Below are positions 2,402-4,453 of a DNA stretch of 34,363 bases, piece by piece. The stretch's first letter is position 1. Each line of letters begins with the position of its first letter. The notes under the pieces were generated by a model. It was not told the origin of the DNA, made no database searches, and was given only the letters and a program-made list of their open reading frames with translations. The stretch spans positions 1 to 34,363 of the forward strand of contig CAIRTM010000127.1 of assembly GCA_903881505.1 (NCBI GenBank), in the 5' to 3' direction. Position numbers and translations under genes: made by a program. Source of the DNA: an uncultured delta proteobacterium (GTDB lineage: Bacteria > Desulfobacterota > WTBG01 > CAIYCZ01 > CAIRTM01).

Positions 2402-2857
2402 ATGGATGAACGACTGTTGGAGTATCTGGCGGTGATGCGGGATTTCGGCCGCATGTACACCCAGCGAATTTTAGAGGGCAGCCGTGAGAGCAGCAATCTT
2501 TTGAAACTTTCACGCATCAAGGCGCTCTATGCGTTCCGTGATCAGGACAGCAGCACCATGAGCGAGCTTGCCGACAATATCGGGGCCAAGCTGCCCAGCA
2601 TGACGATGATGATCGATAATCTGGCCGATGAGGGGCTCGTTGAACGGGCCCGCGATGAGCAGGACCGCCGCAAGGTCATTGTGCGCCTGACCGAGAAGGG
2701 CCGCCGGGTTCGCGAGGAGTTTCTGCAGCAGCGCAATCAGATAGCCGCAGAGCTTTTTGCCAGGCTTTCCCGGGAGGATGAGCAGGAGCTCATGCATCTG
2801 CTGGGGCGTGTGTGTGACATTCTTGAAAAAACGTTCTATGATGAGATGGATGCCTAG
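2402..2857 (+). CDS. MarR family transcriptional regulator (first of a tandem pair)
   Basis: 151 aa winged-helix regulator. A helical N-terminus leads to the HTH (TMSELADNIGAKLPSMTMMIDNLADEGLVERA, about residues 53-83) and then the wing (RDEQDRRKVIVRLTEKGRR), which is diagnostic of MarR. MarR dimers usually repress nearby operons and release DNA on binding small ligands, often phenolics or oxidants. AAGGAG at 2388-2393 sits 8 bp before ATG 2402 and fixes the start. It is followed 54 bp later by a second MarR gene and then a small exported protein, probably in one transcript. It may autoregulate; the flanking flavoprotein gene is another possible target, by inference only. Confidence 0.88.
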   Translation: MDERLLEYLAVMRDFGRMYTQRILEGSRESSNLLKLSRIKALYAFRDQDSSTMSELADNIGAKLPSMTMMIDNLADEGLVERARDEQDRRKVIVRLTEKGRRVREEFLQQRNQIAAELFARLSREDEQELMHLLGRVCDILEKTFYDEMDA

Positions 2858-2911
2858 CCTGCGCGGGCATGAACCGCCTGCAGGCCGGGGCGGCTGACAG
2901 GGGAGGATGCC

Positions 2912-3373
2912 ATGGGAGGGGAGCAGTCCGGAAAGTTTGATGCTGCCATAGAGAAGATTGTGCGGGCCTACGATGTCATGTCGAAAACCATCAATCCTGT
3001 GCCGATGCTGAAGATTGACCTGACGCCGGCCCAGATCAAGGTGCTGATGAGTTTCGATGCTTCGGCCGGCTATACCATGACTGACCTCGGCAGGGCCAAC
3101 AGGGTCACGGTCTCAACCATGACCAGCATGGTCGACCGCCTGGTGTCCTTTGATCTGGTTAAGCGCTGCTCTGACGCGCATGACCGGCGCAAGGTGCTGG
3201 TAATCCTGACTGAGAAGGGCCGTAAAACAATCGACCATATCATCCATGTCCGCCGCCATGAACTCGAGCGCTTTCTGGGCGGGCTGCGCGCTCCGGAAAT
3301 AGCTGAGTTTGTGGATTCGATCGAAAAAACCGCGCATTTTTTGACCAAGGCAAAAAAAAGGATGCAGGCGTAG
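2912..3373 (+). CDS. MarR family transcriptional regulator (second of a tandem pair)
   Basis: 153 aa. It has the same fold as its neighbour: the recognition region TMTDLGRANRVTVSTMTSMVDRL (about residues 52-74) and the wing SDAHDRRKVLVILTEKGRK. The two proteins share the DRRKV-LTEKGR wing but diverge elsewhere, so this is an old duplication or independent recruitment rather than a recent copy. GGGGAGG ends about 5 bp before ATG 2912. Adjacent MarR paralogs could heterodimerise or act at the same operator, which is inference. The next gene starts 35 bp downstream, so the three genes probably form one unit. Confidence 0.88.
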   Translation: MGGEQSGKFDAAIEKIVRAYDVMSKTINPVPMLKIDLTPAQIKVLMSFDASAGYTMTDLGRANRVTVSTMTSMVDRLVSFDLVKRCSDAHDRRKVLVILTEKGRKTIDHIIHVRRHELERFLGGLRAPEIAEFVDSIEKTAHFLTKAKKRMQA

Positions 3374-3408: not shown

Positions 3409-3879
3409 ATGGGCGGATATACTGGTCACATACCGGTACGACTTATTTTCAGCATCATTGCGCTGGGCATGAGTATGTGCCCGGGAGGCTGCTCTCTGGT
3501 GCGTCCTCGGCCGGGATCAGGAGGGATGACTGCCGGTGAAATGCAAGCGCTGGTCGTACCGGTTTCGGCACGCGCGGATAGTGAACCATTAAAACTCAGT
3601 GTGCGCCCGGGTACGCTTGTCGTCTGGGTCAATCAGTCCGGCAATGACATTCGTGTCATGTTTCCGGACCGCACGGTCACCATCGCCTGCCTCAGCCCGG
3701 TAAATTTTGAACTCACTGCCGAGGGATTTTTTTTATCAGGCCGTCTGCCGCCCGGTGCGGTCGCAAGCCTGTGTTGTGTCCAGCCGGGATCATATGCCTT
3801 CAGCATTGAGCGCGCGGCAGCGGGCAGCCCCGTGCAGGCGGATGGTTTCCTGCCCGCGGGCACTGTCACCGTGAGATGA
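3409..3879 (+). CDS. Exported cupredoxin-like protein, possible lipoprotein
   Basis: 156 aa. The hydrophobic N-terminal segment (about residues 10-24) is followed by CPGGC, which could be a non-standard lipobox or simply a signal-peptide end. The mature part reads like a small beta-sandwich: KLSVRPGTLVVWVNQSGNDIRVMF resembles the strand pair after which type-1 copper proteins place their first His, and CCVQPGSYAFSIE sits where the Cys-x-x-His-x-Met loop would be. The His and Met copper ligands are missing, so any cupredoxin fold would be metal-free or use other ligands. No strong ribosome site was seen. It is the last gene before a bidirectional terminator. The assignment rests on pattern only. 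Confidence 0.6.
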   Translation: MGGYTGHIPVRLIFSIIALGMSMCPGGCSLVRPRPGSGGMTAGEMQALVVPVSARADSEPLKLSVRPGTLVVWVNQSGNDIRVMFPDRTVTIACLSPVNFELTAEGFFLSGRLPPGAVASLCCVQPGSYAFSIERAAAGSPVQADGFLPAGTVTVR

Positions 3880-3950: not shown

Positions 3951-3986
3951 AAAAAAGAGACGGCCGCAGTGCCGTCTCTTTTTTTT
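3951..3986. terminator. Bidirectional intrinsic terminator
   Basis: The GAGACGGC / GCCGTCTC stem is extended by A:T pairs, with loop CGCAGT (3965-3970). A-tract and T-tract lie on either side, so the structure works on both strands. It separates the MarR/cupredoxin unit (+) from the PxxKW gene (-), which converge here. Confidence 0.9.
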
Positions 3987-4021: not shown

Positions 4022-4306
4022 CTATGCGCGGCCCTTTGCCTTGCGTTTGGAAGCCTTAAGCGCGTTGATGATTTTTTCTTTTTTGGCTTCGCGCTTGATG
4101 TGTGTTGCAAAATTGCATTTACCGGTTTTCCATTTCAGGGCCGGTTCCGGATAGGCCGTGCAGTACGTGCCGCCGGCGAACTCTTTTGCCTTTTCGCAGC
4201 CCGCGCACTGTTCGACTACCGGCTTGCACGTGGTGTCCTTGTACGTGCAGCCCTGTGTGCTCATAAACAGGCAGTCCTCACCTTTTTTGGTTGTTTCACA
4301 GATCAT
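4022..4306 (-). CDS. PxxKW family cysteine-rich protein
   Basis: 94 aa. The signature PALKW (PxxKW) is followed by KTGKCNFATHI. About seven Cys lie upstream in the first two thirds, in patterns such as EQCAGCEKAKEF and GTYCTAYPEP, suggesting a bound metal or iron-sulfur centre. The C-terminal tail is strongly basic (REAKKEKIINALKASKRKAKGR). The family is small, mostly from anaerobic Desulfobacterota, and has no established function that I know of. ATG 4306 is chosen because AAGGAGG lies about 8 bp upstream; an in-frame upstream extension to 4396 would run through the leader hairpin and is rejected. Transcription appears controlled by the operator and leader terminator at 4364-4453. Confidence 0.85.
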   Translation of the reverse strand: MICETTKKGEDCLFMSTQGCTYKDTTCKPVVEQCAGCEKAKEFAGGTYCTAYPEPALKWKTGKCNFATHIKREAKKEKIINALKASKRKAKGRA

Positions 4307-4363
4307 TTCCGAACTTCCTCCTTTCGTCGCTCCCGGGAAGTGCCGGGGGCAGTGTCGTGCAAG

Positions 4364-4400
4364 AAAAAACGGATTGCAGTTCATGTTCAGCTGCAATCCG
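4364..4400 (-). terminator. Intrinsic terminator in the 5' leader of the PxxKW gene (putative attenuator)
   Basis: A perfect 10 bp inverted repeat, CGGATTGCAG (4370-4379) and CTGCAATCCG (4391-4400), has an 11 nt loop. On the minus-strand transcript it is followed directly by six T (4369-4364). It lies between the predicted start point (about 4417) and the PxxKW start codon (4306). It could attenuate PxxKW expression or release a short leader RNA. It could also stop read-through from the transglycosylase gene. Confidence 0.7.
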
Positions 4401-4407
4401 ATCAGGT

Positions 4408-4426
4408 TATCGCTACCGTAGCAATA
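4408..4426. promoter_or_regulatory. Operator-like palindrome at the PxxKW promoter
   Basis: TATCGCTAC-c-GTAGCAATA is a 19 bp inverted repeat with 8 of 9 pairs matching. It overlaps the -10 box and is centred on the predicted transcription start. A third copy of the half-site, TATCGTTAC, lies next to it at 4428-4436. The position is that of a classical repressor site. The binding protein is unknown. Confidence 0.6.
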
Positions 4427-4453
4427 GTATCGTTACTGCATGCCGCCTGTCAA
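4424..4453 (-). promoter_or_regulatory. Promoter of the PxxKW gene
   Basis: On the minus strand, TTGACA (4453-4448), an 18 bp spacer and TACTAT (4429-4424). The start would be near 4417, giving a leader of about 110 nt that contains the operator and a terminator hairpin. Confidence 0.65.

Follow-up and report, generated by a model that had tools for sequence, protein, structure and literature searches.

A terminator hairpin lies between the promoter and the start codon of the PxxKW gene studied here, and it has been kept with this gene in nine of the 11 genomes of an order. We consider it probable, from the arrangement of these elements, that the leader acts as a 5'-leader attenuator, in which transcripts would end as an RNA of ~50 nt and read-through into PxxKW would be metered. 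The PxxKW gene (DUF6811), whose function is unknown, occurs in single copy in many bacteria of the sulfate-reducer type. It was found in 272 of the 395 genomes of our sample of the phylum and in none of 14 control genomes. A palindrome over the same promoter, previously proposed as an operator, is probably a chance feature.

Results

The leader of the PxxKW gene

We analysed a stretch of 34,363 nucleotides, hereafter the window, in which the PxxKW gene and its surroundings carry the following features (identities are with G001, another genome of the same genus).

3955..3980: perfect hairpin, flanked on either side by a T-run, 3' of PxxKW, where the gene converges with 3409-3879 (plus strand)
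4022..4306, minus strand: PxxKW gene, 94 aa (NF038144, PF20657/DUF6811), start codon ATG at 4306
4317..4324, minus strand: Shine-Dalgarno sequence AAAGGAGG; from there to the start 17/18 identical
4361..4369, minus strand: T-run of the terminator, TTTTTTCTT, 9/9 identical
4370..4400, minus strand: leader terminator hairpin, 10 bp with an 11-nt loop, stem 20/20 identical
4400-4391, minus strand: 5' arm of the hairpin, CGGATTGCAG, 10/10 identical
4379-4370, minus strand: 3' arm of the hairpin, CTGCAATCCG, 10/10 identical
4408..4426: 19-bp palindrome TATTGCTAC-G-GTAGCGATA with 8/9 matches, centred at 4417 over the -10 box; proposed operator, probably fortuitous
4424..4429, minus strand: -10 box TACTAT (TATAAT in G001)
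4436-4428, minus strand: third half-site GTAACGATA, beside the palindrome
4448..4453, minus strand: -35 box TTGACA, 6/6 identical

The preliminary description of this DNA had listed a TTGACA-18-TACTAT promoter, the 8/9 palindrome and a perfect 10-bp hairpin followed by six T, and all of them are present in the letters of the minus strand. The two boxes are indeed 18 nt apart, and the start predicted from the sequence is at ~4417, about 7 nt after the -10 box. The hairpin had been placed about 60 nt before the start codon; by our count the hairpin with its T6 ends 63 nt short of the start codon of PxxKW. No further promoter-like site was found in the window between the hairpin and this start. 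The stem has a computed energy of -14.3 kcal/mol, and 10 dinucleotide-shuffled versions of the window produced no perfect 10-bp hairpin (loop of 3-15) followed by T6. The leader terminator is thus far beyond chance. The hairpin at 3955..3980 would end the PxxKW transcript, which would therefore be monocistronic.

The reading frame of PxxKW stays open upstream of its start (4307-4396, minus strand): it runs across the hairpin as far as a TTG at 4396, and the loop contains an ATG in the same frame. We rejected an upstream in-frame start, as the loop ATG is missing in G001 and the Shine-Dalgarno sequence precedes 4306. The window's protein belongs to the PxxKW family, scoring 109 bits against NF038144 (cut-off 40), and the PxxKW and cysteine pattern is visible in our protein alignment (A4). 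It has two cysteine clusters, of which the C-terminal CxGC/C/C/H is invariant across the alignment, and a nearly invariant LKASKR tail. The conserved CxGC...C...C..H set could be a zinc ribbon. Proteins of the Desulfovibrio/Mailhella type (L039, L044, L065, L089) have lost the N-terminal four-cysteine cluster and retain the CxGC/C/PxxKW/C..H half and the LKASKR tail. The AlphaFold model is of moderate confidence (pLDDT 70). A structural search of the PDB with this model gave zero matches, a sequence search of the PDB gave no convincing relative, and the literature searched held no mention of PxxKW or DUF6811. That the protein binds nucleic acids is no more than a guess.

Conservation within the order

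In G001, whose PxxKW protein is 91% identical to the window's, the stretch from the -35 box to the ATG has the same length of 147 nt, gap-free and with identical spacing of the elements. Identity is 8/11 in the hairpin loop and 36% (ungapped) in the 100 nt 5' of the promoter. The promoter, the terminator and the Shine-Dalgarno sequence are thus retained while the palindrome is not: its block is 9/19 identical, no 8/9 palindrome is left, and the best one there has 7/9 matches with other letters.

Nine of the order's 11 genomes (families f1 and f2) carry the leader hairpin, in the form CGGRYTGY...RCARTCCG followed by a T-run, and in each it lies after the promoter and ahead of the PxxKW start. 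The T-run is retained in all nine, and the loop is not conserved. In G005 and G007, which belong to the same family, the hairpin is absent or degenerate. When the leaders are aligned (A1) the helix is 93% paired, against at most 40% in slid-register controls, and three pairs have changed on both sides. Since five of the ten pairs never vary, support from covariation is real but modest. In all nine genomes the covariance model, R1, ranked the PxxKW leader first. Its sole further match in the window's genome falls on the opposite strand at this very position, so that no further copies were found there, as would have pointed to a regulon sharing this terminator. Of the weak matches of model R1 in G007 and other genomes, the two that were inspected, both in G007, were terminators of c-di-GMP riboswitches. 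The gene upstream is of the SLT type in three of the genomes (G000, G001 and G002) and encodes other proteins in four (G003, G004, G008 and G009). As the upstream gene differs between carriers, the hairpin follows PxxKW and not its neighbour. A second hairpin 3' of the terminator, covarying by eye, was rejected (mean z +0.6).

Leader terminators across the phylum

To this survey we brought upstream regions sampled from the phylum without regard to hairpins, counting terminators of -8 kcal/mol or better. They were found in 27 of 132 PxxKW upstream regions, against 0.7 in shuffles, two on the reverse strand and none in the DNA 250-400 nt upstream. An exact TTGACA lies within 250 nt of 126 of the 151 PxxKW starts (10.4 in shuffles). 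When the survey is narrowed to the 110 genes with an exact TTGACA, 25 have a terminator in the leader and two have one in pre-promoter DNA of equal length. Other genes of the same loci have a terminator upstream in only two cases out of 114, a comparison in which the PxxKW figure is inflated because it includes later loci, some of them picked since relatives had hairpins. Related genomes are not independent events and these counts must not be read as probabilities. Some three in four PxxKW genes lack a terminator in the leader. The 25 that have one span 13 families (f1, f2, f12, f15, f18, f20, f28, f40, f43, f76, f82, f100, f107). Several of these families have, as the closest large ORF upstream, one that points the other way, so that the terminator there cannot be serving that gene. 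Outside f1 and f2 the stems differ in sequence, several 5' arms having CGRRTTRC-like letters, and model R1 found no PxxKW leaders outside the order. The earlier suggestion of attenuation, or of a leader RNA of about 50 nt, draws support from the conservation of the hairpin, from its compensatory changes and from the enrichment of terminators across the phylum.

Candidate antiterminators

In family f12 a 9-bp hairpin, P1, stands directly 5' of the terminator and includes the first four nucleotides of the terminator's 5' arm, in the layout CTCG..TTGGT / ACCAA..CGAG-TTACC / GGTAACTC-T8. The f12 alignment, which omits L165 (the one of ten f12 leaders without P1), has P1 paired in 94% of cells against 21-52% in slid controls, and each of two pairs shows a change of both partners in a single sequence. 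The terminator is paired in 96% and nearly invariant, hence uninformative on covariation. It is plausible from this layout, that of a textbook attenuator, that P1 and the terminator form an antiterminator/terminator pair. No upstream competitor or alternative structure was detectable in the window's own family, f1. Upstream of PxxKW in another genome (L128, genome G178) a GAACTCG can pair with CGAGTTC, the 5' arm of the terminator, an arrangement seen in this single genome and showing no excess over shuffles. Pairing between the U-tract and the Shine-Dalgarno sequence, seen in the minimum-energy fold, was set aside as generic.

The palindrome over the promoter

Palindromes with 9-bp arms, at least eight matches and a spacer of 1 number 10 in the window, where shuffles lead one to expect 7.3, and the shuffled 65-bp region gives such a palindrome (spacer 0-6) in 1.8% of cases. 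The palindrome is thus mildly unusual at its spot only, and this before allowing for its having been picked by eye. The window's genome has no second site with up to two mismatches and fewer matches with three mismatches than the reversed control pattern. Counts in ten relatives are at background, with no sign of a regulon. The preliminary description had taken the palindrome for the operator of a repressor and had proposed to align the upstream regions of relatives and to look for other sites in the genome. The alignment upheld the hairpin but not the palindrome, which is lost even within the genus, and the genome search returned background only. Kept neither in relatives nor at other promoters, the palindrome is probably fortuitous and the operator claim finds no support.

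Discussion

We showed that a stable hairpin with a T-run stands 3' of the promoter and 5' of the start codon of PxxKW, and that this arrangement is conserved with the gene across species, in 9 of 11 genomes of the order and 25 of 110 genes in the phylum. We infer that the hairpin terminates transcription in vivo and that termination is regulated. According to the mechanism we propose, the strong sigma70-type promoter would fire and RNA polymerase would meet an intrinsic terminator some 15-50 nt past the start. Some or most transcripts would then stop as a leader RNA of ~50 nt, the remainder reading through to give the PxxKW mRNA, so that antitermination or read-through would set the level of PxxKW. 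In f12 the upstream hairpin P1 is the likely antiterminator. In the window's family, where no alternative structure is detectable, the leader may instead provide constant damping rather than regulation. Because only ~15 nt separate the predicted start from the hairpin in this genome, a ligand aptamer or a leader peptide is less likely than a constant fraction of read-through, or than the action on the stem-loop of a protein or of a factor associated with RNA polymerase. Ahead of the terminator these ~15 nt contain no riboswitch aptamer and match nothing in Rfam, and a leader peptide would not fit in them; the sole ATG is in the loop and absent in G001. For the metal or redox signal that had been suggested we found no evidence, no sensor being recognisable in the leader. 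The recurrence of leader terminators, far commoner before PxxKW than before nearby genes, suggests control of the PxxKW dose at the level of RNA, and it offers a handle on the role of this protein, through identification of what causes read-through.

Might the hairpin instead be the terminator of the upstream gene, an SLT-domain gene in the window, that happens to come after the PxxKW promoter? In f1 the upstream gene does run in the same direction as PxxKW, and we noticed no terminator separating it from the promoter, as this explanation would have it. But the hairpin sequence is kept despite different upstream genes, the closest large ORF upstream points away in other families with leader terminators, and terminators are found before the promoter in 2/110 cases against 25/110 in the leader, which makes this explanation improbable. 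We give equally little credence to the idea that the promoter and hairpin form an independent trans-acting small RNA of ~50 nt, with PxxKW expressed by leakage only. The unit of promoter, hairpin and T6 is compact and its stem conserved, as in a small RNA; yet the unit is always linked to PxxKW, has no similar copy elsewhere in the genomes of the order and does not conserve its loop, and no other PxxKW promoter was seen in the window.

Stacked control, with a dimeric repressor on the start-point palindrome in addition to the terminator, is the least credible of these alternatives, and we regard it as very improbable. The 8/9 palindrome does occupy the classic position of an operator, with a third half-site, and two MarR-family genes lie about 1-2 kb off, so that a MarR-type protein from 2402-3373 might be the repressor. 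But the palindrome is not kept in G001, no second genomic site exists within two mismatches, relatives are at background, and the number of palindromes in the window is near expectation. The two MarR-family regulator genes are adjacent (2402-2857 and 2912-3373, plus strand) and adjoin genes for an FAD-dependent oxidoreductase (899-2224) and a siroheme-synthase-type protein (181-828). One might also speculate that the PxxKW leaders of the phylum all descend from a single autoregulatory RNA element, whose conserved stem would be bound by PxxKW itself, with its cysteine cluster and basic LKASKR tail, to control its own termination. The 5' arm of the stem resembles CGRRUURC in f1, f2, f12, f43 and f76. 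This is unlikely; if true, PxxKW would be an RNA-binding antiterminator or attenuation protein not known before.

Comparison with known systems

Our favoured reading, an attenuator in the PxxKW leader, can be set beside several known systems. The G007 genome has two c-di-GMP-I-GGC riboswitches (RF03167), at L054:3185-3267 (minus strand) and L161:1436-1518 (plus strand), the former upstream of, and on the same strand as, the SLT-domain gene that precedes PxxKW. Their terminator, CGGACTGCC...GGCAGTCCG followed by T6, resembles the PxxKW hairpin, hence a weak match to model R1. Yet RF03167 has an 80-nt aptamer, whereas PxxKW leaders have neither an aptamer nor an Rfam match. The overlap of P1 with the 5' arm of the terminator in f12 recalls switches between mutually exclusive antiterminators and terminators. 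In the window's own genome, unlike in these switches, this overlap is not visible, and neither an aptamer nor a leader peptide is present. Naville and Gautheret (2010, PMC2965389) named attenuators from 5' terminators recurring with a gene family, in a catalogue based on synteny. The passages of this work that we searched name no Desulfo- or Geobacter species. As with their attenuators, the PxxKW terminator stands between promoter and gene, recurs with one family and does so far above control genes. The PxxKW leader would be a new case, unlisted in Rfam, of a known type of attenuator.
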